A DNA stretch of 64,000 bases from Photorhabdus heterorhabditis (GTDB lineage: Bacteria > Pseudomonadota > Gammaproteobacteria > Enterobacterales > Enterobacteriaceae). The translations under genes were made by a program, and so were the position numbers. The stretch covers positions 1 through 64,000 of the forward strand of contig NZ_RCWA01000003.1 of the NCBI RefSeq assembly GCF_018448905.1, read 5' to 3'. Position 1 is the first letter of the stretch, and each line of letters begins with the position of its first letter. A model generated the notes under the pieces. That model did not search any database and was not told the DNA's origin. It saw only the letters and a program-made list of their open reading frames with translations. This document shows, piece after piece, positions 25,404-42,995 of the stretch.

Positions 25404-25613
25404 GTAAGCTAATAGTTTAAGTACCGGTATTTTATCCTCTCCATCTTCTATTTCTGCACGTATTATCTAAAAGCAATTTCTTCTGAAATATATTACATCA
25501 CTTTATTACTCCTATTGGTGAGTTTTCAGGGCATTTTAGCCTTCAAATCACGACCTTCTTGCAACCAACTTACCTTGTATCCTGTTTACGCTATACTTCA
25601 TAAAAATAGATTG

Positions 25614-25632
25614 CATGCGATCTATTCGTATG
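25614..25632 (+). promoter_or_regulatory. Operator A (putative MarR site) before the MFS gene
   Basis: CATGCGATCTATTCGTATG is an imperfect palindrome, CATGCGA-N5-TCGTATG. It matches 15 of 19 positions of the consensus CATGCGATTAGTTCGCATG built by eye from three sites in this island. A possible -10 box, TATACT at 25592-25597, lies about 17 bases upstream, so a bound repressor would sit just downstream of the start point. The -35 is weak. The rest of the 335-base gap before the MFS gene shows no gene. Confidence 0.65.
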
Positions 25633-25712
25633 ACACCATTATGGTCATTATAGCTCCTTGAGCTGAAACAAAGATGACATCTGATTAACCAAACCGAGTC
25701 ATGGAGTTTAAA

Positions 25713-27272
25713 ATGAACGTTTCACAGCAGATACCAGCTCCTGATAATTATAGTGAGGAGAGAAACCGGTATTCAGTATTACTTCCTTTATGTGCTGCGG
25801 GAATCATCATCCCTATCGTATTTACAGGGCCTGCAATTGCTACGCCTATGATTGCTCTCGAACTTGGTGGTTCTTCGATTGAGTTGGGCGGGATTGTTAA
25901 CGCTTATAACGTTGCTTTTGGTAGTTGTGTGATGGCTGGTGGAACATTGGCTGATCGGTTTGGTCGTAAGCGTTGTTTTTTAAGTGGATTAATCCTGTTT
26001 TTTATCACGTCACTTCTCATTGGTTTCGCTCCCGATATTACTTCACTCAACATACTTCGAGGCATAGAAGGAATCGCCGGCGCGTTGACCCTGACAAGTT
26101 CATCAGCGCTTATCGCGCAAGAATTCGATGAACATTTACGATTGCGCGCGTTTAGTTTCCTTGGTACCTCTTTTGGCATTGGATTAGCATTCGGCCCTAT
26201 GCTTGTGGGGATGATGATAGCTAATTTCGGTTGGAGATCGCTTTTTTTCTTTATCGCGCTGGTATCACTAATTGTCCTTTTGTTCAGCGCCAAAAAGGTA
26301 AATGAATCAAAAGATCCCGACGCGAAAAATATAGATTGGCCGGGCATCATTCTTTTTACACTTGCCTTGAGTACATTAACGCTGGGAATTGTTTTTGCAC
26401 CAGAAAGAGGATGGACTGATATTTATATTATTGGATTATTTCTTGCGAGTGCTTTGTTTTTAGTTATTTTTGTTATAGCGGAAGTTAAGTCTCGCTATGC
26501 AATGCTTGATTTAAGCCTATTCCGCTATCCGCGATTTATTGGCGTGCAATTATTGCCCATTTCAACCGGATTCTGTTTTGTCGCATTATTAGTTTCTCTA
26601 CCAATCTGGTTTATCGGTATTCAAGGTTTTGATGAGGGGCGAGTAGGTCTTGCAATCCTTCCACTGACAGCGCCGATGCTGGTTGTCCCTTTCATTGCTG
26701 GATATCTCTCGAAATATGTCTCACCTGGGCTGATTTGTAGTGTTGGGTTGTTGGTTGCTGCTGTTGGCGGGTGCTGGTTAGCTTTCAGCCTCCAAGTTAA
26801 CGGAGAGATAAATTCTTTAGTTGGTCCTTTGTTAATGATCGGTATTGGTAGTGGATTGCCGTGGGGACTCATGGATGGTTTATCGATGAGTGTCGTTCCT
26901 AAAGAACGCGCAGGCATGGCAGCAGGCATATTTACAACGATGCGCGTGTCTGGAGAAGCTTTAGCTATCGCTATCATTGGTGCTTTGCTGGCAGCTCAAA
27001 CATCAGCCATTCTGGTTTCCTCCAAAGCAGATCATGCTTTTTCAAATATCGTCTCCAGTGAGTGGGGAGGAAAGATCGCGAGTGGTCAAATGTCATCCAT
27101 ACTTGAATCGGTTGCTGATGCAGATAGGACAAGTTTAGGCCACTGGCTTGCAACAATATATCAAAGCTCATTTGGTTCAATTCTACTGATAATAGCCGCA
27201 TTAACAGCGTTGAGTGCGTTAGCTTGTGCATTATTGCTACGACGTGAAAAACAAAACGCCATTCGTAATTAA
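25713..27272 (+). CDS. MFS drug/metabolite exporter, DHA2 (14-TM) family
   Basis: The 519-residue protein has about 14 hydrophobic helices and the MFS motif A GGTLADRFGRKRCFL between helices 2 and 3, followed by IEGIAGALTLTSSSALIA typical of QacA/EmrB-type antiporters. It lies in the inner membrane and probably exports a product or toxic intermediate of the island. ATG 25713 has GGAG six bases upstream; ATG 25701 is less likely. It is the first gene of a co-directional set with the SDR (25 bases later) and the OYE gene. Operator A lies in front. Confidence 0.9.
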   Translation: MNVSQQIPAPDNYSEERNRYSVLLPLCAAGIIIPIVFTGPAIATPMIALELGGSSIELGGIVNAYNVAFGSCVMAGGTLADRFGRKRCFLSGLILFFITSLLIGFAPDITSLNILRGIEGIAGALTLTSSSALIAQEFDEHLRLRAFSFLGTSFGIGLAFGPMLVGMMIANFGWRSLFFFIALVSLIVLLFSAKKVNESKDPDAKNIDWPGIILFTLALSTLTLGIVFAPERGWTDIYIIGLFLASALFLVIFVIAEVKSRYAMLDLSLFRYPRFIGVQLLPISTGFCFVALLVSLPIWFIGIQGFDEGRVGLAILPLTAPMLVVPFIAGYLSKYVSPGLICSVGLLVAAVGGCWLAFSLQVNGEINSLVGPLLMIGIGSGLPWGLMDGLSMSVVPKERAGMAAGIFTTMRVSGEALAIAIIGALLAAQTSAILVSSKADHAFSNIVSSEWGGKIASGQMSSILESVADADRTSLGHWLATIYQSSFGSILLIIAALTALSALACALLLRREKQNAIRN

Positions 27273-27297
27273 TTGACTTGCAAAAGCGAGGTATCTG

Positions 27298-28101
27298 ATG
27301 GATTTGCAGCTGACAGGAAAACGAGCTTTGGTAACAGGAAGCAATAGTGGGATTGGTAGAGCGATAGCGATTTCCTTGGCAAATGAAGGCGTACAGGTTG
27401 TTGTACATGGACGAAGGAAAAAGGAAACTGAAGAAGTCATGCAGGAAATACTTGATCATGGTGGGCAAGCACATATGGTTATCGGCGATCTGACCAATGA
27501 TGATCAAGCTCAAGATGTTGTCCGGTCGGCTCAAATTGCCTCTAGCGGAATCGATATATTAGTGGCAAATGCGGGCGCTTTTCCGCCAACGCCAATCCTG
27601 GAAAGTACGGCTCAGGATTGGTTAAATCTTTACGATCAAAATGTGGGTTCTATTATTCGTTTGCTTCGTTTTATTGTTCCTTCAATGGTGGAAAATGGAT
27701 GGGGACGAGTGATTACTTTAGGGAGTATTGCCGCATCCCGTCCCTTTGCTTCTTTCGGTGCTTATGCGACAACAAAATCGGCCTGTGTGAGCCTTGCGGT
27801 CACCATTGCAAAAGAATTTGCGGGTACCGGTGTAACTGCCAATTGTATTAGTCCGGGTGATGTTATTACCCCAGCCGCAGAACAGCATTGGCGAACTGTA
27901 GCTAAACGTAATGATTGGGCTGATGAATGGGAAAAGATTGAATCTCATGTGGCTTCTAATATTTCACCGACTTTGGTGGGACGATTAGGGCGACCAGAAG
28001 AAATTGCTGATCTGGTGACTTTCCTGGCAAGTCCGAAATCTAATTATATTAATGGTTCTAATTTTAGGATCGACGGGGGTTTTCTAGCGAGTACGGCTTA
28101 A
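27298..28101 (+). CDS. SDR-family NAD(P)-dependent oxidoreductase
   Basis: The 267-residue protein is a classical short-chain dehydrogenase: TGSNSGIG nucleotide motif near residue 9, LVANAGAFPP, catalytic Ser in TLGSIAAS and YATTK (the YxxxK motif), and a C-terminal NYINGSNFRIDGGF. It reduces a carbonyl or oxidises an alcohol; the substrate cannot be read from sequence. Asn-Arg-rich GRRKKE after the second strand suggests NADP preference (inference). It follows the MFS gene by 25 bases. Confidence 0.9.
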   Translation: MDLQLTGKRALVTGSNSGIGRAIAISLANEGVQVVVHGRRKKETEEVMQEILDHGGQAHMVIGDLTNDDQAQDVVRSAQIASSGIDILVANAGAFPPTPILESTAQDWLNLYDQNVGSIIRLLRFIVPSMVENGWGRVITLGSIAASRPFASFGAYATTKSACVSLAVTIAKEFAGTGVTANCISPGDVITPAAEQHWRTVAKRNDWADEWEKIESHVASNISPTLVGRLGRPEEIADLVTFLASPKSNYINGSNFRIDGGFLASTA

Positions 28102-28108
28102 TTCGATA

Positions 28109-28194
28109 TATACTCAGTGGATTTCAAGATGGATCGCGACGGCAAGGGAGCGAATCCCCGGGAGCAAGAGGCAACTTGAAAGATAACGGGTATA
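28109..28194 (+). repeat. Dispersed repeat copy R1
   Basis: It starts TATACTCAGTGGATTTCAAG and ends CTTGAAAGATAACGGGTATA, with GATCGCGACGGCAAGGGAGC between. Six related copies occur in the window (28109, 29344, 44668, 45887, 51999, 54981), in both orientations. The ends are imperfect inverted repeats beginning TATACCC, like a miniature element without coding capacity. R1 fills most of the SDR-OYE gap. Confidence 0.75.
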
Positions 28195-28216
28195 GATAAA
28201 TAGCTAGAGGGATATT

Positions 28217-29332
28217 ATGGATACGCATTACGCTGCATTGTTTGCGCCAATGTCATTTGGTTCTCAGATGTTGAAAAATCGAATTGTCATGTCACCAATG
28301 ACACGGCAATTATCTCCCAATGGTATTCCTGGGCAGGTAAATGCTGCATATTATCGACGACGTGCCGAGGGAGGTGTTGGTTTAATTATTACCGAGGGGG
28401 TATGTATTCCCCATATCGCAGCAAATGGTTACGCGGATGTTCCGGTAATGTATGGAGATGAAGCGCTTAACGGATGGAAAACAGTTGTAAAGCAAGTGCA
28501 TGAATATGGTGCATTGATAATTCCCCAACTCTGGCATGTTGGCCCAATGCGTAGACCGGGTATTGGGCCAGATCCTTCAGTGCCTGGATATGGCCCGATG
28601 ACCATACGCGACGGCGACCAGACAATAGTGAAAGGTCTCAACGAGAAGGATATCAAAGATATTATTGATGCGTATGTTCAGGCGGCTAAGAATGCATTGG
28701 ACATTGGTTTTGATGGTATTGAGATCCATGGAGCCCATGAGTATTTGTTAGATAGTTTTATTTGGCAAGTGACAAATCAGCGTAAAGATAAATATGGAGG
28801 AACATTTAATAACCGTATTCGTCTTGCATCTGAGGTTGTCAGCGCGATACGAGCAGCCACTAGCCCTGAATTTCCTATCGTATTCCGTTTTTCACAGTGG
28901 AAAATACGCAACTATGGCGCTAAAATAATCGAAACCCCTGATCAGTTAGAGAAATTTGTGACAACGCTAGTTAAAGCGGGTGTAGATGTATTTGATGTTA
29001 GCACCCGCCGTTTTTGGGAACCAGCATTTGAAGGGAGTCCAGACAGCCTGGCAGTTTGGACCCGACGTTTAAGTGGCAAGCCTACTATTATGGTCGGTAG
29101 TGTTGGTTTGGATAAAGCCTATGCGATCGCGCAGTTGCGTGGAGATGAGAAACCAGATGCAGGGAGAGCTGATTTAGCTCCGGCAATAGAATTGTTGGCA
29201 TCCGGCTCAGTTGATTTAGTTGCTTTGGGGCGAATGTTATTAGCTGATCCAGAATGGCCGACAAAAGTTTATGAAGGAAGACTATCGGAAATTTTTCCTT
29301 TTGATAAGTCGTCAATGATGACGCGTCTTTGA
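28217..29332 (+). CDS. NADH:flavin oxidoreductase, Old Yellow Enzyme family
   Basis: The 371-residue protein is a TIM-barrel OYE: LFAPMSFGSQMLKNRIVMSPMTRQ at the N-terminus, YYRRRAEGGVGLIITEG, LIIPQLWHVG, and GFDGIEIHGAHEYLLDSFIWQVTNQRKDKYGG with the substrate-binding His pair. It carries FMN and reduces activated C=C bonds with NAD(P)H. There is no C-terminal FeS/FAD extension as in 2,4-dienoyl-CoA reductase. Substrate unknown; a ring or enone intermediate of the island is likely (inference). GAGGGA-like SD precedes the ATG. Confidence 0.9.
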   Translation: MDTHYAALFAPMSFGSQMLKNRIVMSPMTRQLSPNGIPGQVNAAYYRRRAEGGVGLIITEGVCIPHIAANGYADVPVMYGDEALNGWKTVVKQVHEYGALIIPQLWHVGPMRRPGIGPDPSVPGYGPMTIRDGDQTIVKGLNEKDIKDIIDAYVQAAKNALDIGFDGIEIHGAHEYLLDSFIWQVTNQRKDKYGGTFNNRIRLASEVVSAIRAATSPEFPIVFRFSQWKIRNYGAKIIETPDQLEKFVTTLVKAGVDVFDVSTRRFWEPAFEGSPDSLAVWTRRLSGKPTIMVGSVGLDKAYAIAQLRGDEKPDAGRADLAPAIELLASGSVDLVALGRMLLADPEWPTKVYEGRLSEIFPFDKSSMMTRL

Positions 29333-29343
29333 TGTTATTTACA

Positions 29344-29428
29344 TATACCCTTCCTCTCACCCCAGTCACATAGTTATCTATGCTCCTGGGGATGCGTTCA
29401 TTTGCCGCCGCGCTGCAACTCGAAATCT
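29344..29428 (-). repeat. Dispersed repeat copy R2 (degenerate)
   Basis: This copy lies in the opposite orientation to R1 and is decayed. It keeps TATACCC at its left end, the inner CTCACCCCAGTCACATAGTT block and CTGCAACTCGAAATC near its right end. It sits between the converging OYE and EthD-like genes. Confidence 0.6.
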
Positions 29429-29490
29429 GCTCCCGATTATTTGTCTGGTGTCTGTCAGATGAATTTTTGTATCTGATTGTCAATCCAAAA

Positions 29491-30471
29491 TTATAAAAGG
29501 CTATTTATCGAGTTTTGATTTATTAATGTGTGAGAAAGTGCACTCCAATATTCACTTTTTTCTATATTAAATAAAGAATTATTTTCTAGAGTGGCAGATA
29601 AATCCAGATCCTGGAGAAAGTCTTCTAAATCGGTTATCGATGCGAATGCCATAATTGAGATGGCATCGATATCTTTTGCTATCGGATGGAAAAATTTCTC
29701 TCCTGTCATGATGGGACCAATATTATGTAGCTGAATGTAACGTTGAACAAACTTTTGTGTTGAAGGTTGAGAGATTATTGCTTTGGCATATTGGTATAAC
29801 AGAATTTCATGAAAATCACTGCGATTTAATTCCGTTGCCCGTCGATGAATATTGACTAAAAGTATAGCATCGCTATTTGTTTTGCTCGGAATTAAAACAT
29901 GTTGACGGCAAAGTACTGGACAGAGTTCTCGAAAGATCACTTGGTCCTCAGGCAAGATGGCTCTACTAATTTCTGGATGTTCGAATAAGGAATACAAGTT
30001 ATCTATATTTGGGAAGCTTAAATACGCTATGCCATCCCATTGTGGCCGACGATGGCTAGGAATATGCCCTATGATGGTATTAAACAAATGCCCGTCTTTA
30101 TCAAGTGGTGGCTGATAAGGAAGAGGGTTGATGCTTGAAGGACCCGATGAGAATCGGTGGATTTGATCATAGCGTAGTAACGTATATTTCCCATCGGATT
30201 CCCGTGGTAAGGCATGAAGGAACCTGGGACCATGAACTTTACGCCAATATTCGGTCCATTTTTCGAAAGCCAAATTTGCATCCTTTTCAAATGCATTTAT
30301 GACTAAAGGCGGTTCCACCAAAGGGTGGCCTTGTACGTCAAGCATTTGATTTGGATCTTTGCGACGTTCTGTTAATGGCGAACTGTCAGCTCTGGAGAGC
30401 AATGTGCAAAGTACGGTTGTCTGAGGTGTGGATGATGAACTAACGGGAAGAACGCTAATGCAATCAGTCAT
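29491..30471 (-). CDS. Tandem EthD-domain protein (dimeric alpha/beta-barrel)
   Basis: The 326-residue protein appears to hold two EthD-like ferredoxin-fold repeats. The first (about 55-190) has AFEKWTEYWRKVHGPRF and RPQWDGIAYLSFPNIDNLYSLF; the second (about 195-320) is weaker, with FVQRYIQLHNIGPI and DAISIMAFASITDLEDFLQ. Single EthD domains occur with aromatic or ether catabolism and with polyketide tailoring, where the fold can catalyse decarboxylation or cyclisation. There is no signal peptide. It is transcribed away from the FAD monooxygenase, and operator B lies inside its predicted promoter. Confidence 0.7.
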   Translation of the reverse strand: MTDCISVLPVSSSSTPQTTVLCTLLSRADSSPLTERRKDPNQMLDVQGHPLVEPPLVINAFEKDANLAFEKWTEYWRKVHGPRFLHALPRESDGKYTLLRYDQIHRFSSGPSSINPLPYQPPLDKDGHLFNTIIGHIPSHRRPQWDGIAYLSFPNIDNLYSLFEHPEISRAILPEDQVIFRELCPVLCRQHVLIPSKTNSDAILLVNIHRRATELNRSDFHEILLYQYAKAIISQPSTQKFVQRYIQLHNIGPIMTGEKFFHPIAKDIDAISIMAFASITDLEDFLQDLDLSATLENNSLFNIEKSEYWSALSHTLINQNSINSLL

Positions 30472-30564
30472 ATGTTACTTCCTTAGCTAAGCGCTGGTGC
30501 AATATTAGTGCATTACAAACGTTCGAAGTGTCCGATCAGTATGCGAGGGACAATGAACCAAATA

Positions 30565-30593
30565 ATGGTATCATGCGATTAGTAAGCATGTAA
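30565..30593 (-). promoter_or_regulatory. Predicted sigma70-type promoter of the EthD-like gene
   Basis: On the - strand, -35 TTACAT (complement of 30588-30593) and -10 TACCAT (complement of 30565-30570) are separated by exactly 17 bases. Operator B covers the spacer. The transcript would begin about 85 bases before the EthD-like start codon. Confidence 0.5.
30572..30590 (+). promoter_or_regulatory. Operator B (putative MarR site) between EthD-like and FAD monooxygenase genes
   Basis: CATGCGATTAGTAAGCATG agrees with 17 of 19 positions of the shared motif and is a partial palindrome (outer CATGC/GCATG). AATGGTA occurs just before and just after it. The 359-base divergent region also holds a 14-bp palindrome at 30617-30630 and a possible + strand promoter (TTTACA near 30703, 17 bases, TATTTG) for the monooxygenase. 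Confidence 0.7.
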
Positions 30594-30616
30594 TGGTATT
30601 TTTGTGCTGGCTAGAC

Positions 30617-30630
30617 CCTATCATGATAGG
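30617..30630. promoter_or_regulatory. 14-bp perfect palindrome in the divergent promoter region
   Basis: CCTATCATGATAGG is fully self-complementary. It lies 27 bases from operator B in the same divergent region. It could be a second regulator site; no other copy was noticed in the window. Confidence 0.35.
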
Positions 30631-30830
30631 AAAATAGCATAAGGTTACTGTTCGCTTCATTTTTTGGCCCTTATAACGAATAGCAATGTTGTAGCTGTTT
30701 ATATTTACATTAAAATTTAAAGAATATATTTGCTTATTACACGCAAACGATCTAAATTCAAAAAAGAAATAATCCCGTTCAGTTCTCATCTATCGTCTCT
30801 GTTCTCGCGTCATTTCGGAGAGCTAAAAAA

Positions 30831-32519
30831 ATGCATCAACCTCCAAGTTTGGATTATAAAAAACCTTTGGATATCAATTTATCAGTGCCAAGGAAGGTTC
30901 CCGTAGTGATTGTAGGAGCTGGATTAGTAGGATTGACTTTGGCATTAGATCTCGCTCGTAGAGGTGTTCCAAGTGTCGTGCTTGAAACACGTCAGGCATT
31001 AATTGAAGGTTCTCGAGCCATTGTCTTCGCTCAGCGTTCTTTAGAAATACTTCAGCGGTTAGGGTTAGGGGAACGATTGACTGAGAAAGGCGTCAATTGG
31101 AATTTGTCCAGAATTTATCATAGAGAACGAGAGTCTTTCAGTTTTGACTTTAAAACCGAGCCTTATTTTGGTTGCCCTGCATTCTTGAATATTCAACAGA
31201 CTTATATAGAACAGTGGCTAATTGAGGATTGTTTAGCCAGTGGGTGGGTTGATTTGCGCTGTTTAAACACGGTGACCTCGTTAGAATCGAGTGGTGTTGG
31301 GGCTTCGGTGAAGGTCACCTGTCCAGATGGTTCGTATCGACTGGATTGTGATTGGCTCATAGCTTGTGATGGCGCGCGCTCATTTGTGCGGAATGCGCTG
31401 AATTTACCGTTAGTTGGTAGGCATTTTCATGATCATTTTTTGATTGTTGACGTCGAAATGAAACCGGACTTTCCTGCGGAACGTCGTTTCTGGTTCGATC
31501 CACCGTTTCATCCGGGGCATTCGGTTCTTTTACATAAACAACCTGATAACTTGTGGCGTGTTGATTTTCAATTGGGTGCAGAAGCAGACCCAGCATTTGA
31601 GAAACAGCCAGCAAGAGTTACCGAACGTTTAAAGGCAATGCTAGATCCGAAAATCGCTTTCAGGATCGACTGGATAAGCATATATACCTTTCGATGCAGG
31701 CGATTGGAGAATTTTGTTCATTCACGAATCGTATTCGCTGGCGATAGTGCCCACGAAGTCAGCCCTTTTGGAGGAAGAGGGGGAAATGGAGGAATTCAGG
31801 ATGCAGATAATTTGGCCTGGAAACTCTGTGCCGTTGTAAAACATGGAGCATCACCAAAACTATTGCAGTCCTATGATGAAGAACGAGTTTACGCTGCGGA
31901 TGAGAACATAATTAATTCGACTCGCAGTGCACAATTCATTACCCCGCCAAATCACGCAATAGCGACGCTTCGTCAAGCCAGTCTTGTTTTGTCTGAAACG
32001 ACGGCAATGGGATGTACCTTTGTAAACTCTGGGCGTTTATCCAGTCCAGCTCGACTAGGAGGTATCGGGCAATTTTTGCCCGATACCTCTGTGAAAGGCA
32101 GAGTGAAACCCGGGGATGTTGCTCTGGATGCTCCGGTAAAAAATGGAGATGAGAGTAGCTGGTTATTGCACTTTATCGGTAGAAAAGGGTTCACACTTCT
32201 ATGTTATCGGCTAAGTTCCAATTATGACGGAGGAGTAAATCATATTCATATAGAAGATATTAGTAATTCCTATCCATTAGAAATCATTACAGTCGTGTCG
32301 GCTACAGTAGAACAACCGACTGTAGCCTCAATTGATATCACTTTGGTAGATCACTATGGTTTGGTTGCTAAGCGTTATGATTTGGCTTGTGGATCAATCG
32401 TATTATTCAGACCTGATCAACATGTGTTAGACGTATTTCCCTCGTTTAACCGTGATGACATTGAAAGGACACTTGCTCATTCCATGCCAATAGCTACCCA
32501 TGCCGAGAGAAAAATATAA
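30831..32519 (+). CDS. FAD-dependent aromatic monooxygenase (PheA/MhpA-like)
   Basis: The 562-residue flavoprotein has the GxGxxG dinucleotide motif VVIVGAGLVGLTLALDLARRG (24-44), the DG motif WLIACDGARSFVRNAL (near 180) and the GD motif RIVFAGDSAHEVSPFGGRGGNGGIQDADNLAWKL (near 300). These define group A hydroxylases acting on phenols and hydroxylated aryl acids, using NAD(P)H and oxygen. A C-terminal thioredoxin-like extension is present. GGAGAG precedes ATG 30831. It overlaps the DUF2783 gene by one base; the two are often neighbours. The precise substrate cannot be predicted. Confidence 0.9.
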   Translation: MHQPPSLDYKKPLDINLSVPRKVPVVIVGAGLVGLTLALDLARRGVPSVVLETRQALIEGSRAIVFAQRSLEILQRLGLGERLTEKGVNWNLSRIYHRERESFSFDFKTEPYFGCPAFLNIQQTYIEQWLIEDCLASGWVDLRCLNTVTSLESSGVGASVKVTCPDGSYRLDCDWLIACDGARSFVRNALNLPLVGRHFHDHFLIVDVEMKPDFPAERRFWFDPPFHPGHSVLLHKQPDNLWRVDFQLGAEADPAFEKQPARVTERLKAMLDPKIAFRIDWISIYTFRCRRLENFVHSRIVFAGDSAHEVSPFGGRGGNGGIQDADNLAWKLCAVVKHGASPKLLQSYDEERVYAADENIINSTRSAQFITPPNHAIATLRQASLVLSETTAMGCTFVNSGRLSSPARLGGIGQFLPDTSVKGRVKPGDVALDAPVKNGDESSWLLHFIGRKGFTLLCYRLSSNYDGGVNHIHIEDISNSYPLEIITVVSATVEQPTVASIDITLVDHYGLVAKRYDLACGSIVLFRPDQHVLDVFPSFNRDDIERTLAHSMPIATHAERKI

Positions 32520-32752
32520 TGAAACCGTACAATCACTTTTTGGCAGGATCGTTAATTACCTACAGCCATTTAACAGACCCAGATGCCTGTTATGAAATGA
32601 TAACAGAGGCGTGTCAAGAGCTGGGGGATGAACCAGGGAATCTATTTTACGCTCAATTGGTTTTATTACTCGTTAATCATATCGGTGATTCTAATATCTT
32701 ACGAGAAGCGATAACTGTTACACGTAAGGGGCTGACGACAGTCGCTAATTAA
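32519..32752 (+). CDS. DUF2783-family small protein, monooxygenase partner
   Basis: The 77-residue acidic protein has the DUF2783 pattern DPDACYEMITEACQELGDE followed by AQLVLLLVNHIGDSNILREAI. It is helical, has no signal and no catalytic motif. Its ATG shares one base with the monooxygenase stop, so the two are almost certainly co-translated. Such proteins are found next to FAD-dependent hydroxylases, and a role as a small subunit or stabiliser is inferred from this association; no function is established to my knowledge. Confidence 0.75.
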   Translation: MKPYNHFLAGSLITYSHLTDPDACYEMITEACQELGDEPGNLFYAQLVLLLVNHIGDSNILREAITVTRKGLTTVAN

Positions 32753-32796
32753 GTCGCGTAATAACCTTTAAAAACTTATATTCAAGGGGAATTGAT

Positions 32797-35700: not shown

Positions 35701-36282
35701 GCTGTTGTAAAAGCTACTGCTAACTGGGGGGATTTCACATTAGCTCACGCAGTTGCTCGCAATTTATTTAAACTCATGGCTTACAAAGATGAATATGAGG
35801 TTGCCCGCCTGCATAGTTCACCGCAATTTCTGCATTCTTTGACCGAATCATACATTGGGCGTCCCAAATTAAATTTTCATCTTGCACCGCCATTCTTGGG
35901 TAAGTGGCTGGGAAAAAATGGGTATCATCGTAAAATTACTGTATCTGGTTGGATTATTCCTTTTTTTCGCGGGCTTGCCGCTCTCCGATGTGTGCGTCAC
36001 ACTTTTTTCGACATCTTTGCCTGGTCTCATGAACGACGTGAAGAGCGGCTTTTGGTTTCGAGATATAAGGATACATTAAATGATTTATTATCAAAGGTTT
36101 CACCAGATAATCTCTCTTTGATTGTCCAGTGGGCGGAAGTACCCGAAAATATTAGAGGATATGGACATATCAAGGAGCGTTCAATTGCAGTCGCTTATAA
36201 ACGTCAGGATGAATTACTTAATCAAATAGCGAATGGTGGCGCCACAATATATTCATCAATACCCATTAAAGAAGTTAATTAA
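32797..36282 (+). CDS. Fused indolepyruvate:ferredoxin oxidoreductase family protein (IorA-IorB type)
   Basis: This 1161-residue protein combines a 2-oxoacid:acceptor oxidoreductase alpha part (GFVSGYRGSPLGGVDKELW near the N-terminus), the TPP-binding part (CSGCPHNSST near 428, GDGTFFHSGY near 495 and NDAVAMTGGQ), a 4Fe-4S segment (CEGCGDCQIQSNC near 631-643 plus later Cys residues), a gamma domain (GVGGTGVVTMAATIGL near 728, FTQKGGSVFSHIRI) and a C-terminal DUF6537-like region. The family converts aryl- or branched 2-oxoacids to acyl-CoA, CO2 and reduced ferredoxin. All cofactor motifs appear intact. It follows the DUF2783 gene by 44 bases with GGGGAA upstream. Confidence 0.92.
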   Translation: MILDTSYRLESRYRRGIDEPQGKIFISGQQALVRMLLAQSALDRSVGLNTAGFVSGYRGSPLGGVDKELWAAKNLLEKANIRFQPGINEDLAATTLIGTQRVETDKMRLFDGVFGLWYGKGPGVDRSGDALRHGNAYGSSPHGGVLVVIGDDHGCVSSSMSHQSDQALIAWGLPVIHPINLQDYEYCGLWGWALSRFSGLWVGFKAITETVEATASIKVSEFPSFKQPEIETGPDGLHWRWPDLPGMQIERRFAYKLEAARRFISENSLDSVDCAPATPKLLIAAVGKAYLDVRGALDELGITLTELETAGIALLGIRVVYPLSPVLKAWAQRSEKVWIIEEKTGIVENLLKASIFNSILDSRPLIIGKSDENGMKLLPSEDELRPSRIVDVLVKQLRECGLSIEVPSFWSMKLIERSLNWVKRTPYLCSGCPHNSSTMIPEGSQARLGIGCHALAARIPERATTGSVQMGGEGVDWIGQMSFVRTDHIFQNMGDGTFFHSGYLAIRQAIAAKANITYKILYNDAVAMTGGQPLDGSLSVEQVAALVCSEGAKEVVIVAKEPERYKTKDRLPEQVKVYHRDQLNEVQLRLRTIPGVTVLIYDQVCATEDRRRRKRQPVPAKKTYVTINELVCEGCGDCQIQSNCLSVVPVDTEFGAKRAIDSESCNTDLSCLKGFCPSFVTVTGKPRLVNMDKTERQLIMTRADELPLPQLPGINQCYEILITGVGGTGVVTMAATIGLAAHLQDFSVSVLDFTGFTQKGGSVFSHIRIGAKDHILHQHRIERGCADVLIAADLTVASEDEALNALRSGQTKIIANTHEMQTGSMVRDRNLKIDTSDIEKRLIELVGEDGYDAINARYFATQFVGSIQTNILLLGYAWQKGVIPLSLQVLEQAINLQGGDVAANKVAFAGGRLLATDPAYVQSLVVPAASVRASGGEQGLREVVESRSRYLTDYQNESYAEKYRAQVNAVVKATANWGDFTLAHAVARNLFKLMAYKDEYEVARLHSSPQFLHSLTESYIGRPKLNFHLAPPFLGKWLGKNGYHRKITVSGWIIPFFRGLAALRCVRHTFFDIFAWSHERREERLLVSRYKDTLNDLLSKVSPDNLSLIVQWAEVPENIRGYGHIKERSIAVAYKRQDELLNQIANGGATIYSSIPIKEVN

Positions 36283-36350
36283 TAAGCTCTGTATAAATAA
36301 CTGAATTAAGTGATAATCATTGGTTATTAATTTCTAAATAAAATAAAGTT

Positions 36351-36410
36351 TGAGAGTTACTGGTTCTAATATTTGGCTACATTCTTATATAAAACACAAA
36401 GTAACTCTCA
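36351..36410. terminator. Long inverted repeat between converging genes
   Basis: TGAGAGTTACT (36351-36361) and AGTAACTCTCA (36400-36410) are perfect 11-bp inverted repeats separated by 38 AT-rich bases. They lie between the converging oxidoreductase and MmgE/PrpD genes and may act as a two-way transcription stop. The loop is long and no clear U-run follows either arm, so the role is uncertain. Confidence 0.4.
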
Positions 36411-36457
36411 TTAATAATAAATTTATATGTCCATACCAGAATAGCGGTTAAATCCCT

Positions 36458-37849
36458 TTATCTTGGGAATAATACGTTAGCAAGCATTTGATAATCTGGA
36501 TTATGATTTTCGCGATCTAAAATCCAATCTAATATTGCTGAAATATTTTTGTGAATATATGCATTTTGGGAATAAACCACACATTTTTTAAACTTGTCTA
36601 TCAACTCTTCAAGCGTCATTGGGTTTTTGGCATTACCTTTTGCATAAGAAACTTCGCCTTTAAGTTGGGTCGCATCTTTAAACTGAATAATAATTTTGAT
36701 TTTTCCATGTGTGCCTAATTCAGGTATTTCACATTCGGCTGCACTTCTGAGATAAATTTTTCTACTTAAATCAATGATATCCTTGCGACGAATGGCGTTT
36801 TCCGTGAAATCATCAATAAATAAATCCCCTGTTGTGAGTACGGCCGCAATATTATACGCGAGGCTGAAACGGGCTTCGACTACGGTTTGTGGTACTTGTT
36901 TTCGTTCTACTGGCGAGCCAACGAGATCAAATATTTGTTGGTTGGTAAGAACATCTATACGCTCTATTTCATTAATATCAATCTGTTGACCATTTAGCAT
37001 TTCTTTTATTAACGCCACGGCTGAGGTATTTGGGCGGCAAGTAGGATAGGGTTTAAATGCGATTAATTGATCGAGTACAAAGGTTGTGCCTAATTCGTCA
37101 ATAATTGAGTCAAGATTTGAACCAGGTTCAAAGGCGCTATAATAGCCCCAGCGTCCACTGAGAAATTGTTTTGCCCCGGTAAAACCTTGTTCAGCGAATA
37201 TTACCGCTTTCACTGCATGGGATGCGACCAAGCCTTGTTGGTAAAAAACGGTTGAGGCACCGTCTATCATACATTGTGTTTCACCCAATGCGGATGTATA
37301 TGCAATCCCAAGTGCGTTATGCAGTCGATCTCCTGTCAGGCCATATAACATTCCTGAGGCCGCTGTTGCTGCAATAACTTTACACAGGTCATACCGGCCA
37401 CTTTCAAGTAATGTTTCCTTACGCGCCCTTGAAAGTCTAAGAGAAAGTTCCATACCTGCAATATAGGCAGTCATGAATTGTTCACGCGATATTGGTCGAT
37501 CAAGGGAATCGGCAATAGCAAGCAACGCGGGTAATATCGCCACACTGGGATGTGTTCCGAGTGAGTCGCCAACATCATCGAAATCTAGCACTCTGGCAGC
37601 CGCTCCGTTTAACATTGCTGTGGCCGGAGCCGGTAAAGCTAATATTCGCCCAACTACTCGACTTTCTGGTTTTCCTCCCCATTTTTCGGTTATTTTAGTC
37701 AATAGTTCAACGCCGGGGTCACGGGTGCCAGCTAATAAAACACCAATAATATCAAGTAAGCAGTGGCTGCCGATTTCTCGGGTATTGTGATCAATTGAGG
37801 AATATTTAAGACTATCACAATAACTAACGATTTTAGATTCTAAGTTCAT
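36458..37849 (-). CDS. MmgE/PrpD-family protein
   Basis: The 463-residue protein has the MmgE/PrpD layout: HCLLDIIGVLLAGTRDPG, GAAARVLDFDDVGDSLGTHPSVAILPALLAIAD near 80, GLVASHAVKAVIFAEQGFTGAKQFLSG and KPYPTCRPNTSAVALI. Members include 2-methylcitrate dehydratase and cis-aconitate decarboxylase, acting on tricarboxylic or branched acids. The exact reaction cannot be read from sequence. The gene ends the - strand run beginning with the carboxyltransferase; an AGGAAT ribosome site precedes it. It suggests that a branched-chain acid is dehydrated or decarboxylated in the pathway. Confidence 0.88.
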   Translation of the reverse strand: MNLESKIVSYCDSLKYSSIDHNTREIGSHCLLDIIGVLLAGTRDPGVELLTKITEKWGGKPESRVVGRILALPAPATAMLNGAAARVLDFDDVGDSLGTHPSVAILPALLAIADSLDRPISREQFMTAYIAGMELSLRLSRARKETLLESGRYDLCKVIAATAASGMLYGLTGDRLHNALGIAYTSALGETQCMIDGASTVFYQQGLVASHAVKAVIFAEQGFTGAKQFLSGRWGYYSAFEPGSNLDSIIDELGTTFVLDQLIAFKPYPTCRPNTSAVALIKEMLNGQQIDINEIERIDVLTNQQIFDLVGSPVERKQVPQTVVEARFSLAYNIAAVLTTGDLFIDDFTENAIRRKDIIDLSRKIYLRSAAECEIPELGTHGKIKIIIQFKDATQLKGEVSYAKGNAKNPMTLEELIDKFKKCVVYSQNAYIHKNISAILDWILDRENHNPDYQMLANVLFPR

Positions 37850-37908
37850 GATAATTCCTGTTTATAAAAGTCTTATTCACGCTATAAGTCTTAAAAATAA
37901 TTAAATAT

Positions 37909-38487
37909 TTATCTAACTGGATTGAAAGTCATGAGTACCTGATCGGTACTGACATTTTCTCCCACTGCCACATCTATTTTTTGGATTAAATATTTTCCTG
38001 GAGAGTAAAGTGTTATAACCATTTTCATGGCTTCTATACGTAATAACGGTTGTTTATCTTCTACAACACTGTTTTCAGAGACGAGAATCTCTAATACATT
38101 GGCTGGAATAGGGGATGACAATATATTGCTATCTTGATAAGGCTTAATGGATTTGTTTTTCCATAAATTCCCCATACTTAAAGCTATTGCTCGATGGCTT
38201 CCCGCATAGTCGATAAGAAAGTCATTTGATGAATTGCGTTTTAATAAAATCGTTTTTCGAATACCGTCAATCTTTATTCTTAATCGTATTGTATCGCTTG
38301 ATATATGTTGCACATCTTCTAACTTGAGTTCACATGAAATGCCTTGAATATCATTCCATTGCGCTTGGTAAAGATGCGAACCAAGGCTATGAATTGTTGT
38401 CCTGACTTGGTTCAATTCACCTTCTACGACACCGTTTAGCAATGTTGATATTGTTGATGATACAGAGCTTGGATCTGTATTACGCAT
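37909..38487 (-). CDS. Biotin carrier subunit (BT-BCCP type) of an acyl-CoA carboxylase
   Basis: The 192-residue protein ends in a biotinyl domain with EAMKM, the biotinylation Lys being residue 155, and flanking IPANVLEILVSENSVVEDKQPLLRI. The preceding part (about 45-110) looks like the beta-barrel BT linker found between biotin carboxylase and carrier in propionyl- or methylcrotonyl-CoA carboxylase alpha chains. It thus seems to be the C-terminal half of such an alpha chain encoded as its own gene. AAGAGGA precedes the start. It lies 45 bases after the biotin carboxylase gene. Confidence 0.88.
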   Translation of the reverse strand: MRNTDPSSVSSTISTLLNGVVEGELNQVRTTIHSLGSHLYQAQWNDIQGISCELKLEDVQHISSDTIRLRIKIDGIRKTILLKRNSSNDFLIDYAGSHRAIALSMGNLWKNKSIKPYQDSNILSSPIPANVLEILVSENSVVEDKQPLLRIEAMKMVITLYSPGKYLIQKIDVAVGENVSTDQVLMTFNPVR

Positions 38488-38532
38488 ATGCAGTCCTCTT
38501 AATATGAAGGAATTTATGGCGTACCTGTTGAC

Positions 38533-40011
38533 TCATTTCCAACTGCTATTTCGTTGAATCCATGGTGATATTGGTTTATGTGTATCCGAATGTGTTTGCA
38601 CATCAGGAATAAGATTTAAATGTAGAACCAAAGCGGTAATTGCATGCATTGCCAGAGCTTTCCGCTGGGGTAGGGAATGGGTATTTTCGATTGTTTTACC
38701 GATAGAAAGATCATAATTGCCTTGGTTGAATGATTGGTTGTCTATTAACCAACGATGTACTGCGAGATTAGTACTAAAACCCGCAATAACCAGTTCATCC
38801 AGCGCCAGCCGCGACCGCTTTAAAGTTTGTTCACGATTGGCGCCGGAAACAATGAGCTTGAGGCATAAGCTATCAAACAGAGGCGACATCTTAGCGCCCA
38901 GATGTATCCCTGAATCAACACGTATACCCGGTCCTTCCGGGATACGATAATCCAACACTTCCCCACCGTTTGGTAGAAAATTCCCGTGGGCATCTTCCGC
39001 ACAAATACGAAATTCCATTGCATGACCTGAGAAATGAATGTCCTGCTGAGTCAGTGTCAAAGGCTGATTTGCCGCGGAATAAATCATGTGTTCAACGATA
39101 TCTATGCCGGTTATAGATTCTGTAACCGGATGCTCAACCTGAATGCGGGCATTCATCTCAATGAAATAAAAATGTCCTTCTTTATCAAGCAGAAATTCAA
39201 CCGTGCCGGCGCTGTCGTATTCTACCTGATGAGCAACCGCCAACGCAGCGTTATGAAGTTTTTCATATTGCATTTCTGTCAGTCCGGGAGCGGGTGCTTC
39301 TTCAACAATTTTTTGCCGTCGGCGTTGCACGCTACATTCACGAGTTCCAAGATGTAAAATTTTTCCGTATTGGTCAGCCAGTATTTGAACTTCTATATGG
39401 CGGATATCTTCTCCCAGGAACTTCTCAAGATAGACCTGATTGTTGCCGAATGCCCGTAGAGCCTCTTGCCTGACTTCCTCATAAGAGGTGATAAAGTCTT
39501 CCGGTTGATCTACCACTCGAATCCCACGTCCGCCGCCGCCATGAGCGGCTTTAATCAACAGGGGATAACCCAGATTATTTGCCAAAATCATTGCCGCATT
39601 AGCATCGGCATCAATTTGCATGCCCGGAATAATAGGAATTTTAGCCCGTTCTGCCGCTGCGCGAGCAGCAATTTTGTCACCTGTCTGGCGGATAACTGCG
39701 CTATTAGGACCGATAAAAATTAAGTTGGCCTTAGCACAGGCGTCAGCGAAATCAGCGTTTTCTGCGAGAGGGCCATATCCCGGTGCTACGGCATCTACCT
39801 TACAAGATAGCGCGACGTTAATCACCGTCGTGATAAGCGTTTCAGGTATCCAGGCGTCAACTCTTACCGCTTGATCAGCAGCATGAACAAATTCTGCATT
39901 ATCATCATCCGCGCTGTAAATCACGGTGGTATTAATATCCATTAGCCGACATGTACGTATGAAACGCAGGGCGATTTCTCCTCTGCAACAGATAAGTACA
40001 TGGCGGATCAT
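38533..40011 (-). CDS. Biotin carboxylase subunit of an acyl-CoA carboxylase (AccC-like)
   Basis: The 492-residue protein has the ATP-grasp biotin carboxylase motifs: RGEIALRFIRTCR at the N-terminus, GPNSAVIRQTGDKIAAR, the Gly-rich AAHGGGGRGIRVV near 165, EVQILADQYGKILHLGTRECSVQRRRQKIVEEAP and FIEMNARIQVEHPVTE. It carboxylates the biotin of the carrier subunit using ATP and bicarbonate. The start ATG overlaps the HMG-CoA reductase stop (ATGA), showing translational coupling. The usual ANRGE is replaced by CCRGE. It is distinct from the housekeeping AccC by its operon, and probably belongs to a propionyl- or methylcrotonyl-type complex. Confidence 0.92.
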   Translation of the reverse strand: MIRHVLICCRGEIALRFIRTCRLMDINTTVIYSADDDNAEFVHAADQAVRVDAWIPETLITTVINVALSCKVDAVAPGYGPLAENADFADACAKANLIFIGPNSAVIRQTGDKIAARAAAERAKIPIIPGMQIDADANAAMILANNLGYPLLIKAAHGGGGRGIRVVDQPEDFITSYEEVRQEALRAFGNNQVYLEKFLGEDIRHIEVQILADQYGKILHLGTRECSVQRRRQKIVEEAPAPGLTEMQYEKLHNAALAVAHQVEYDSAGTVEFLLDKEGHFYFIEMNARIQVEHPVTESITGIDIVEHMIYSAANQPLTLTQQDIHFSGHAMEFRICAEDAHGNFLPNGGEVLDYRIPEGPGIRVDSGIHLGAKMSPLFDSLCLKLIVSGANREQTLKRSRLALDELVIAGFSTNLAVHRWLIDNQSFNQGNYDLSIGKTIENTHSLPQRKALAMHAITALVLHLNLIPDVQTHSDTHKPISPWIQRNSSWK

Positions 40012-41240
40012 AACGATGTATCCTCGGATGATTCAGTTGGCTTGGTCGGGTTTAAGCCACGACCCAATACGGTATGGGCACGGGTGAATTCTCCCGCACT
40101 TACCGCGCCAGCAACGGAGATTTCACCCGCCAGTGCAACTGCTGCTGTTATTTCAGCCAATTTACGGGCATCGTGAGTGCACCCAATCATGCTGAGACAT
40201 TCTTGCTGGATGGGGAGTTTAGTTCCACCGCCGACCACGCCAACGATAAGGTTGGGGATGGTCAAACTGGCGTTGAGATCTCCGTTATCAAGTACTTCAA
40301 AATGCGTGCAGGCATTTTTAAAAGAGACGGTAACAAAAGCCGGATCTTGCCCACAGGCGATAAACATTGCGGTTAACGCATTAGCGACATGGATGTTTGG
40401 CGCTGTGGCTCCGCGTTGTGCAAGTAATGTGTTACATGCTAATAGAAATTGTTGCATGCGTAATGGCGTTGTACGTAATCGTTCTTTTACCAAACTGTGA
40501 GGTATTCGGACACTCGCGGCAACATATCGGCCTTTAGCCTGATCACTGACAAAACGTTTATCTCCCCCTAAGGTATTGAAATAGTGTGAAATAAGTTCGG
40601 GACACGCTTCCTGAATATAACGACAAACGGCCTCATTCGCCTTAGTCGCCATATTTAATCCCATTGCGTCACCTGTCTGGTAGGTCAATGCTAATCCGAT
40701 TAAATTACCCTGAAAGAGCGGGGAAATTTCTAACAGCCGAGCGTAACGGCTGGTGTTGTTGGCAACTATTAAGATTTGCGACATGTGCTCTTGCAGCCAG
40801 TTGGCGAATTTTAGCGCATCCTCAGATCGGTGTAATACAACAGCAGAGACTTTTGTCAAAGCGTCGCCCAAAAAGCGATATGCGGGGTTTGGTGTGTTTT
40901 GAACGGAATTCTCCTGACTCAGTATTTGGCAACCTCCGCTATCACTGATTAAATTCATTCCTCTTGAAAAAGAAGCAATCAAAGCGCCCTCTGTCGTTGC
41001 CAGGGGAATAGCAAATGTTCCTTTGGCTGATATGCCATTGATCAGAAGCGGGCCAGCTATGCCTAGAGGAACCCCAACGTAACCAATCATGTTTTCGCAG
41101 GTTCCTTGAGCTAACTCGGGTCCCATGGTTTTGCCTGCAATATAGGGATAAGATTGCCCGGTTGTTTCGGAAAGCCAGGATAACCGTCGGCTTACCGATG
41201 CCTGACTATAGTCATCGTGTCGATCACGCGGAATTGCCAT
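40008..41240 (-). CDS. Hydroxymethylglutaryl-CoA reductase
   Basis: The 410-residue protein shows all hallmark segments: ENMIGYVGVPLGIAGPL (49-65), TTEGALIAS with Glu84, TGDAMGLNMA (189-198), Lys228 in GGDKR, Asp299 in CGQD, VGVVGGGT and His389. The four family catalytic residues (Glu, Lys, Asp, His) are therefore present. The GYVGVPLGIAGPL and CGQD motifs resemble class I more than the Pseudomonas mevalonii class II enzyme. The reaction interconverts HMG-CoA and mevalonate with NAD(P)H. I moved the start to ATG 41240 (AAGGAAT upstream), which lies 13 bases after the carboxyltransferase stop. No HMG-CoA synthase or other mevalonate genes are nearby. Confidence 0.9.
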   Translation of the reverse strand: MAIPRDRHDDYSQASVSRRLSWLSETTGQSYPYIAGKTMGPELAQGTCENMIGYVGVPLGIAGPLLINGISAKGTFAIPLATTEGALIASFSRGMNLISDSGGCQILSQENSVQNTPNPAYRFLGDALTKVSAVVLHRSEDALKFANWLQEHMSQILIVANNTSRYARLLEISPLFQGNLIGLALTYQTGDAMGLNMATKANEAVCRYIQEACPELISHYFNTLGGDKRFVSDQAKGRYVAASVRIPHSLVKERLRTTPLRMQQFLLACNTLLAQRGATAPNIHVANALTAMFIACGQDPAFVTVSFKNACTHFEVLDNGDLNASLTIPNLIVGVVGGGTKLPIQQECLSMIGCTHDARKLAEITAAVALAGEISVAGAVSAGEFTRAHTVLGRGLNPTKPTESSEDTSL

Positions 41241-41253
41241 AATTTTAATTCCT

Positions 41254-42759
41254 TTATAGTTGTATGTTCGAATGCCGTCTGGCTGGATGACCACTTATTT
41301 TGTCTCTTAATATTCTGAAACTTGAAATAAGCCGGTTACGCAGATGAGAAGCGGGGATCAGTCCTTCAATGTAGGTTTTTTTTGCAGAATATGCAGCGCT
41401 AGCGTGGGCTTGACGATATTCTGTAATCAAAAGTTCTCGCTGTTTTTCTGGTTCTTGAGCAGCCGCAACAATTTTACGAAATATGATATTGACCGCGCCT
41501 TCTGGCCCCATGACAGAAATTTCGGCATCAGGCAGGGCATAAATGAAATCCGTGGCTCCCCGATTGGCTAGTGTTGGATATGCTCCTCCATATGCTTTAC
41601 GCAATATCACGGCAATCTTAGGGATCGACGCTTCACAATAGGCGTGCATAAGCTTAGAGCCAGCGCCTATTATGTTACCTTGTTCCTGCTGTTTTCCCGG
41701 TAAGTAGCCCGGTACATCAACTAATGTCAGTAAGGGGATGCCAAACGCATCACATAAACGGACAAAACGAGCGGCCTTTTCAGAAGCATCAATATCTAAA
41801 CAGCCCGCTAACCAATTAGGTTGATTAGCGACAATGCCGATGACATGTCCACCCAAGCGAGCCAGACCGGTAATGATATTGCGAGCATACAATTGCTGTA
41901 TTTCAAGGAAAGTTTCTTTATCGACTATTTCTGCAATGACTTCCTTGACGTCGAAAGGAAGAGATTTGTCATGAGGTACAATTTCCTCAATGTTGGGTGT
42001 TTCTCGCTGCCTCGCTGTAGAATCTGAGATAACGATAGGCGTTTCGGCATTATTCTGGGGAAGATAGGATAATAGATGTCGTGTTAAAGATATTGCCTCC
42101 AACGCTGAATCGACCAGAAAGTGAGCCAGCCCGGTCTGACTTGCATGCATTAACCCACCGCCTATATCTTCTTTACTGACATTTTCTCCGGTCGCTTGTT
42201 TAATGACCGCTGGACCGGTTAAAAATAAAGTAGATTGTTTATCAATCATTATTATGAAGTCAGTGAGTGCTGGTGTGTAAGCCGCTCCGCCTATACAGTC
42301 GCCGAGTATTAATGATATTTGAGGGACAACGCCGGAAGCTTGTACTGTTTTACAAAATACGTAACTGAATTGAGAGTTGGCATCAACGCCTTCATGTATG
42401 CGTAAGCCAGATGATTGATTCAGCGCTATGATCGGCATACCAGTACGTAAAGCTAACTCTATGACTTTGCATATCTTTACGGCATGAATTCGGCTGGAAC
42501 TGCCTCCCATAAACTGATTGTCATGACCATAAACAACCACTGGACGGCCATTGATGAATCCATATCCGGTAGATATCCCGTCTCCGGGTATTTTCTTTTG
42601 ATCTGCGTTAAAGAGAATACAGTCATGTTCTGCAAGCGCATCCAATTCTGAAAAGCTACCTGGATCAAGCAGATTTTCGATCAGATTATAATTTGGGTTT
42701 GCGGGGGATACTTCTTTTTGTTGATTGATGATACCGGTAGTGTCAGATAATTCGGACAT
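41254..42759 (-). CDS. Acyl-CoA carboxylase carboxyltransferase (beta) subunit
   Basis: The 501-residue crotonase-fold protein has a two-lobe carboxyltransferase: N-lobe with IPGDGISTGYGFINGRPVVVYGHD, QSSGLRIHEGVD, GDCIGGAAYTPAL and DIGGGLMHASQTG, and C-lobe with RFVRLCDAFGIPLLTLVDVPGYLPGKQQEQGNIIGAGSKLMHAY and AVILRKAYGGAY. This is the PCC-B/MCC-B family, transferring CO2 from biotin to an acyl-CoA. Substrate (propionyl, methylcrotonyl, geranyl or other) is undetermined. It is the first gene of the - strand operon, behind a promoter overlapped by operator C. Confidence 0.93.
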   Translation of the reverse strand: MSELSDTTGIINQQKEVSPANPNYNLIENLLDPGSFSELDALAEHDCILFNADQKKIPGDGISTGYGFINGRPVVVYGHDNQFMGGSSSRIHAVKICKVIELALRTGMPIIALNQSSGLRIHEGVDANSQFSYVFCKTVQASGVVPQISLILGDCIGGAAYTPALTDFIIMIDKQSTLFLTGPAVIKQATGENVSKEDIGGGLMHASQTGLAHFLVDSALEAISLTRHLLSYLPQNNAETPIVISDSTARQRETPNIEEIVPHDKSLPFDVKEVIAEIVDKETFLEIQQLYARNIITGLARLGGHVIGIVANQPNWLAGCLDIDASEKAARFVRLCDAFGIPLLTLVDVPGYLPGKQQEQGNIIGAGSKLMHAYCEASIPKIAVILRKAYGGAYPTLANRGATDFIYALPDAEISVMGPEGAVNIIFRKIVAAAQEPEKQRELLITEYRQAHASAAYSAKKTYIEGLIPASHLRNRLISSFRILRDKISGHPARRHSNIQL

Positions 42760-42817
42760 GTAGTGACTCCGCTCGCATAACGAAACAAGATAACAAAATG
42801 GACCTTATCTGATTATG

Positions 42818-42846
42818 ATAATAGATCTCATGCGAACTAATCGCAA
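42818..42846 (-). promoter_or_regulatory. Predicted sigma70-type promoter of the carboxylase operon
   Basis: On the - strand, -35 TTGCGA (complement of 42841-42846), a 17-base spacer and -10 TATTAT (complement of 42818-42823) form a good match. The transcript would start some 50 bases ahead of the carboxyltransferase start codon. Operator C covers the -35 and most of the spacer. Confidence 0.65.
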
Positions 42847-42847
42847 G
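42829..42847 (-). promoter_or_regulatory. Operator C (putative MarR site) in the carboxylase promoter
   Basis: Read on the - strand it is CTTGCGATTAGTTCGCATG, matching 18 of 19 positions of the island motif. The arms CTTGCGA and TCGCATG are inverted repeats. Its position over the -35 and spacer implies repression by occlusion, and the MarR gene ends about 150 bases away. Confidence 0.75.
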
Positions 42848-42995
42848 CTGTGTTATTGAGGATTTCGTTGATATAAATTTGCGCGCTGAATTTAGGTGTA
42901 CGATGGACGCTCTCGTGGGTTAAATGAATTTTTTTCTCCATTTTGCTGCATAGGGTACTTACTCGAGGCGTCCATCTCGTCAGATCCGTACTCGT

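Follow-up and report, generated by a model that had tools for sequence, protein, structure and literature searches.

A SlyA-like MarR regulator and shared 19-bp palindromes probably form a local regulon in a metabolic island of Photorhabdus heterorhabditis

Introduction

In the window analysed here, a 64,000-nucleotide stretch of the Photorhabdus heterorhabditis genome (assembly GCF_018448905.1, contig NZ_RCWA01000003.1, positions 1 to 64,000), a gene for a MarR-family regulator adjoins an ~18-kb island of metabolic genes. These encode an MFS exporter, a short-chain dehydrogenase (SDR), an Old Yellow Enzyme family protein (OYE), an EthD-domain protein, an FAD-dependent hydroxylase family protein (FMO), an indolepyruvate ferredoxin oxidoreductase family protein (IOR), an MmgE/PrpD family protein (PrpD), a biotin carrier protein (BCCP), a biotin carboxylase (BC), an HMG-CoA reductase-like protein (HMGR) and an acyl-CoA carboxylase carboxyltransferase (CT). 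Three similar palindromes lie at the promoters of these genes, raising the question of whether they are operators through which the neighbouring MarR protein governs the whole island, as an earlier note on this DNA had proposed. We find it highly probable, on sequence evidence, that the island is a local regulon in which the SlyA-like MarR binds 19-bp operators at its promoters.

Results

The consensus claimed for the three sites, CATGCGATTAGTTCGCATG, was searched allowing up to three mismatches. It matched three places in the window, compared with a mean of 0.00 in 100 dinucleotide shuffles, and no further match occurred in the complete 5,046,526-base assembly, in which a reversed control of the consensus gave none. 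The three-site claim of the earlier note was upheld by this result, and in the whole-genome scan that it had proposed, many equally good matches did not occur for the consensus. Its counts of agreement stood for site 2 (+ strand, two mismatches, 17/19) and site 3 (- strand, one mismatch, 18/19), while its figure of 15/19 for site 1 applies to the + strand reading (four mismatches), the best reading being on the - strand (three mismatches, 16/19).

Less strict searches were also performed. The looser symmetrical pattern CATGCGANNNNNTCGCATG matched with up to two mismatches at six places in the same genome, namely sites 1-3 and one place each in L008, L009 and L010 (1501-1519 in each), which fall within open reading frames of 535, 286 and 671 amino acids (L008 67-1674, L009 707-1567 and L010 169-2184). 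At up to three mismatches this pattern was rejected as a genome-wide test, being near background (96 matches vs 73 for the reversed control). Two variant consensus words, CATGCGATCTATTCGCATG and CTTGCGAATAGATCGCATG, searched in five genomes at up to three mismatches, were likewise set aside as a test: they gave 13 matches with 9 on island sites and 14 matches with 8 on island sites, including four each in the P. heterorhabditis genome, at sites 1 and 3 and at two off-island places.

Across 13 Photorhabdus genomes, the sites go with the marR gene, both being present or both absent. All three sites were found in each of the three genomes that carry the island MarR, and the ten genomes without it contained one three-mismatch match in total. 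The reversed control gave eight matches in these ten and none in the three with MarR. The island MarR is not core to the genus (3/13), its closest matches being in Photorhabdus asymbiotica DSM 15149 (99% identity) and Photorhabdus australis DSM 17609 (97%), which places the genome near these two species. A contig search with MarR, which reaches close relatives only, confirmed four loci out of 102 candidate stretches. The island HMGR is present at 94-95% identity in two other of the 13 genomes, and the remaining ten have only a 36-39% relative; this HMG-CoA reductase-like domain occurs in 13/13, within a frame of 849-875 amino acids (G000:C12:8554-9729). At E <=1e-120, holders of the island HMGR numbered 2 of 398 in the genus of G003, both previously known, and were confined to the P. 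heterorhabditis genome itself among 398 in the phylum sample and 394 in the order sample.

A six-gene core, IOR-CT-HMGR-BC-BCCP-PrpD, is carried by Sinorhizobium conjugative plasmids at 24-61% identity, lowest for BCCP. Two of the nine matches were fetched and read (L071 13043-22739 and L072 13067-22739). Neither stretch had a match to MarR, EthD, FMO, OYE, SDR or MFS, and in each the part from 10 kb to the operon end was free of the palindrome, allowing up to three mismatches. Near the six-gene core, L071 has an adenylation-domain gene, a SagB-type gene and a phosphopantetheinyl transferase gene.

A collinear block was found in Pseudomonas sp. Irchel 3E13 and Pseudomonas japonica DSM 22348, in stretches of 63-69% G+C content, with the order marR, CT, HMGR, BC, BCCP and PrpD, then convergent IOR, FMO, EthD, OYE, SDR and MFS. 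The genes travel as one block, and their description in the earlier note as otherwise unrelated-looking did not hold. Among the matches listed, protein identities between the window and Pseudomonas were 56-86%. MarR is ~85-86% identical between the two genera (86% in each Pseudomonas), with an invariant EGQSLVRLLDQLE stretch, and the other island proteins listed are at 56-76%: CT 69-70%, HMGR 71-73%, BC 64-65%, PrpD 65-68%, IOR 66-76% (the highest being a partial match), FMO 62-63%, EthD 56-59%, OYE 65-66%, SDR 71-73% and MFS 68-71%. For BCCP no Pseudomonas match above 45% identity was found, and an open reading frame of the right size lies at its place (L006 14931-15497, L007 14898-15485).

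The Pseudomonas block contains two extra genes. A prephenate dehydrogenase gene (tyrA; L006 8743-9609, L007 8745-9620) is divergent from marR and preceded by a palindrome site and TTGC(G/T)T-17-TAATTT. A class II DAHP synthase gene lies between EthD and OYE (L065 8070-9449, L066 13549-14928), directly after EthD and on its strand; the L065 product scored 697 bits against an NCBIfam cut-off of 615. No counterpart of either gene turned up in the window or in the stretches searched from Photorhabdus and Sinorhizobium. The only regulator gene found within the block is marR. Homologous DNA between 3E13 and P. japonica ends 13 bp past the MFS operator and on the other side spans tyrA, and the examined flanks beyond the block do not match. 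Just outside the MFS operator, P. japonica has three tRNA genes, the nearest being tRNA-Asp (L066 9541-9617). A candidate nonribosomal peptide synthetase at L007:64-7626 was rejected, as it had no Pfam match.

Counterparts of the palindromes are found at the orthologous Pseudomonas promoters, which the earlier note had not predicted. The CT site reads CTTGCGAATAGCTCGCATG in 3E13 and TTTGCGAATAGATCGCATG in P. japonica, the MFS site is CATGCGATCTATCAGCGTG in both, and the FMO site is strong in P. japonica (CTTGCGAACTAAGCGCAAG) and degenerate in 3E13 (CTTGCGTACTACGCGTCAG). Both strains also have a weak site ahead of EthD, and another site in the gap between tyrA and marR. The FMO and EthD sites are separate in Pseudomonas, whereas Photorhabdus has a single site between these divergent genes.

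A matrix built from the three window sites only was scanned on four Pseudomonas stretches with 100 shuffles, and its best score fell at a cluster promoter in 4/4: CT in L006 and L007, MFS in L065 and FMO in L066. The best score exceeded the largest shuffle in L006 (23.9 vs 17.7), L065 (17.5 vs 16.9) and L007 (24.6 vs 20.5), and in L066 it was not above every shuffle (21.3 vs 26.3). The tyrA-marR site ranked second in L006 (14.3) and L007 (20.0). A reverse matrix of eight Pseudomonas sites, partly circular in that these were picked with the motif known, was run with 200 shuffles (mean best score 13.0, largest 21.8). It gave the three window sites the first three ranks (26.1, 23.3 and 19.2), the third not being above every shuffle. 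Further matches lie before the Pseudomonas marR at 9848 in L006 (12.1) and in L007 (12.6).

The longest words shared between the two lineages coincide with the operators in two regions: TTGCATGCGATCTAT (15 bp) in the MFS region, reached by 0 and 1 of 500 shuffles, and TCGCATGAGATCTA (14 bp) in the MarR-CT region, reached by none of 500 shuffles in both comparisons.

The marR gene lies on the - strand upstream of the CT gene and in the same direction, with site 3 between the two, so that the adjacency described earlier was borne out. Coverage by site 3 of the -35 hexamer and spacer of TTGCGA-17-TATTAT was also confirmed, and the orthologous Pseudomonas promoters read TTGCGA-17-TACAGT and TTGCGA-17-TAGCAT. 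Nineteen oriented sites were examined in all, with the FMO and EthD copies of P. asymbiotica and P. australis left out. In 11/19, the -35 of a TTGNNN-17-TANNNT promoter was found within the operator or at its edge; these comprise all five CT sites and both Pseudomonas copies of FMO, EthD and tyrA. Looser hexamers at a spacing of 16 or 18 gave three more (window FMO, 3E13 MFS and window marR). A general promoter scan of the region gave no excess of promoter-like matches over shuffles (34 vs 45.6).

Upstream of marR, the fourth-best window score with the Pseudomonas matrix marks a possible weak operator, CATGCTTATTGCTCGTTAG, whose score of 13.9 is not significant alone (mean best shuffle 13.0). 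Another repeat before marR, at 43491-43509, had a low score (7.2). By eye, P. australis (L056 15160-15650) has ~100 bases directly after the weak pre-marR site that neither the window nor P. asymbiotica has.

The MarR protein exceeds the curated cut-offs for the MarR domain (PF12802, 41.2 bits vs 27; PF01047, 40.6 vs 24.6) and falls below the SlyA equivalog cut-off (NF002926, 84.9 bits vs 120). In the PDB it is matched best by chains that bear the name SlyA, namely 4aih (E 2e-19), which is RovA, and 3q5f/3qpt (E 1.2e-16); a SLVR-LDQLE helix is similar in these chains and the island MarR. The CouR structure 6c28 is a weak sequence match (E 1.3e-8). A separate relative with 33-35% identity is present in 13/13 Photorhabdus, and the one in the P. 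heterorhabditis genome (33%) was taken to be SlyA. The SlyA site is TTAGCAAGCTAA, from which the island operator differs.

More distant MarR cousins were matched in 47 plasmid records, with 42-50% identity among the ten listed, and eight loci were fetched. In 6/8, FUSC-DUF1656-HlyD genes are annotated beside MarR, as operons of Burkholderia, Caballeronia and Rhizobium, and the other two are unannotated; the cousin regulator sits with an efflux pump, whereas the island MarR sits with metabolic genes. A different palindrome, CGATAG-N4-CTATCG, lies upstream of marR in three of the eight loci (L090, L091 and L095, all Burkholderia). Among the four best matches to the island motif per locus, none scored above 2.5 within 260 bp before marR, and the best matches in the Rhizobium loci (12.2 in L092 and 14.5 in L093) fall inside marR itself. 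Considered as an independent test of the pairing of MarR and site, these operons neither support nor refute it.

Discussion

Conservation at Pseudomonas promoters, co-occurrence with MarR and uniqueness of the consensus support the regulon reading, to which the earlier note had come. In the mechanism that we propose, MarR, presumably as a dimer, would bind the inverted repeat ~NWTGCGA-N5-TCGCAWN, whose centre is often CTA or TAG. It would thereby control three or four predicted transcription units: MFS-SDR-OYE, EthD, FMO-IOR and CT-HMGR-BC-BCCP-PrpD. Where the operator lies over the -35 hexamer and spacer, as it often does, bound MarR would cover both and should exclude RNA polymerase, making blocking repression the simplest reading. 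MarR would be released by a ligand, probably one of the aromatic acids or CoA esters of the pathway; that it should be aromatic can reasonably be guessed from the DAHP synthase and prephenate dehydrogenase genes of the Pseudomonas block and from the IOR and FMO family enzymes of both lineages. By analogy with the MarR family, the island may be inducible. The link between regulator and sites is suggested by their neighbourhood and co-occurrence.

The sites could instead be operators of a regulator encoded elsewhere, the neighbouring marR being incidental. Binding by MarR is a prediction, the motif is unlike the palindromes upstream of cousin MarR genes, and marR itself is without a strong copy, all of which such a regulator would accommodate. 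It is nevertheless an improbable explanation, given that marR is the sole regulator gene found in a Pseudomonas block with unmatched flanks, whose extra genes are tyrA and DAHP synthase, that MarR and the sites co-occur in 3/13 Photorhabdus, and that the Sinorhizobium core has neither. Similarly unlikely, in our estimate, is that MarR acts mainly as an activator or countersilencer, like SlyA/RovA, and not as a blocking repressor. The closest solved relatives are indeed SlyA-type proteins, and SlyA/RovA are described as countersilencing horizontally acquired genes in Enterobacteriaceae (PMC6401476). However, many of the island sites lie on the -35 and spacer at fixed geometry, also in GC-rich Pseudomonas, and SlyA is itself reported not to be a classical activator in vitro (PMC6401476).

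We give almost no weight to the palindromes being chance matches or a dispersed repeat. The loose pattern does lie near background at up to three mismatches, and the reversed consensus controls give matches of their own in Photorhabdus; against this, the three genome-wide consensus matches are all at island promoters and are conserved across genera. For sites 1 and 3 chance is already contradicted, and site 2 is argued for by motif and position.

Several observations weigh against control of the island by MarR through these sites. Taken singly, the EthD sites (9.8 and 10.4) and the FMO site of 3E13 (5.7) fall short of significance, and the longest shared word in the EthD-FMO region is 9 bp, as expected by chance (197 and 209 of 500 shuffles). 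Site 2 was missed by both variant words in all three Photorhabdus, and over the five genomes 4/13 and 6/14 of their matches fell off the island. The looser pattern at up to two mismatches occurs at eight places in each of P. asymbiotica and P. australis, of which three are the island sites and five lie elsewhere. Five of the 19 oriented sites have no overlapping promoter, even with looser hexamers (MFS of the window, P. asymbiotica, P. australis and P. japonica, and the EthD direction of the window). The promoter of marR offers a weak candidate operator only, leaving autoregulation uncertain. The cousin MarRs are without the upstream palindrome, so that specificity is not readable from the wider family, and the comparison spans only two well-separated lineages.

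Control of a local cluster by a MarR protein through operators at its promoters is of a known kind. SlyA is described as repressing its own gene and the divergent ydhIJK pump, and as being inhibited by aromatic carboxylates (PMC6401476). The island MarR is like SlyA/RovA in its nearest structures and its SLVR-LDQLE helix, and differs in falling below the SlyA cut-off, in having a separate relative in its own genome and in targeting, as predicted, metabolic genes. CouR, also a MarR protein, represses a local aromatic pathway and is released from its operator by p-coumaroyl-CoA (PMC4737184); the island MarR is alike as the putative regulator of a local aromatic cluster, and differs in that its sequence matches CouR only weakly.

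More interesting is the pathway itself, which looks uncharacterised and aromatic. No paper on this cluster was found by title or the beginning of the abstract among the open-access papers listed; of six gene words only PVC occurred in the main text of PMC2717986, and none of five occurred in that of PMC3091717. As a tentative and on balance doubtful proposal, the island may carry an uncharacterised biosynthetic pathway that is portable and comes with a regulatory circuit of its own, the steps being ordered from enzyme families. In Pseudomonas, a dedicated class II DAHP synthase and a prephenate dehydrogenase, each encoded behind a palindrome site, would feed arylpyruvate. IOR would convert this to arylacetyl-CoA, and the enzyme of propionyl-CoA carboxylase type would then form arylmalonyl-CoA. 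The HMG-CoA reductase homologue would reduce arylmalonyl-CoA to 3-hydroxy-2-arylpropanoate, which PrpD would dehydrate. FMO, OYE, SDR and EthD may tailor the product, MarR may sense an intermediate, and the MFS protein may export the product. Sequence alone here points to an accessory block common to Photorhabdus and Pseudomonas, complete with regulator and operators, and a defined operator and regulator would provide a handle for seeking the inducer and hence the chemistry of the pathway.

Other features of the locus

The features of the window are listed in Table 1.

Table 1. Predicted genes, putative operators and promoter of the island, in window positions.
Feature	Position	Strand	Basis or remark
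Operator 1 (putative)	25614-25632	+	Before MFS-SDR-OYE; window and genome matches; MFS site in both Pseudomonas; shared word TTGCATGCGATCTAT
MFS exporter, DHA2/EmrB-like (below EmrB cut-off)	25701-27272	+	Profile search
Short-chain dehydrogenase (SDR)	27298-28101	+	Profile search
Old Yellow Enzyme family (OYE)	28217-29332	+	Profile search
EthD-domain protein	29491-30471	-	Profile search
Operator 2 (putative)	30572-30590	+	Between divergent EthD and FMO genes; window and genome matches; FMO-promoter site in P. japonica
FAD-dependent hydroxylase family protein (FMO)	30831-32519	+	Profile search
Indolepyruvate ferredoxin oxidoreductase family protein (IOR)	32797-36282	+	Profile search
MmgE/PrpD family protein	36458-37849	-	
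Biotin carrier protein (BCCP)	37909-38487	-	
Biotin carboxylase (BC)	38533-40011	-	
HMG-CoA reductase-like protein (HMGR)	40008-41294	-	
Acyl-CoA carboxylase carboxyltransferase, propionyl-CoA carboxylase beta type (CT)	41254-42759	-	
Promoter TTGCGA-17-TATTAT	42818-42846	-	-35 and spacer covered by operator 3
Operator 3 (putative)	42829-42847	-	Over -35 and spacer of carboxylase operon promoter; 14-bp shared word TCGCATGAGATCTA
marR, SlyA-like MarR regulator, 153 amino acids	42996-43457	-	
Possible weak operator CATGCTTATTGCTCGTTAG	43590-43608	-	Upstream of marR; fourth-best window score with Pseudomonas matrix

In P. asymbiotica the island is split by a ~34.7-kb insert between IOR and PrpD (L052 from 13778 through L054 to 10464), which the window does not have. 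Three of four scanned proteins of the insert had Pfam matches (phage tail sheath, baseplate and AAA ATPase), and by its look and the description in PMC2717986 it resembles a Photorhabdus virulence cassette (PVC). The island halves of P. australis are on different contigs, bordered by sequence matching the P. asymbiotica insert. In both species, both halves keep their sites.

An Rfam search of 25300-44000 gave no matches. Between OYE and EthD, a repeat at 29356-29424, presumably ERIC-like by its look, matches short stretches of 11 enterobacterial records in the plasmid collection with 87-100% identity.

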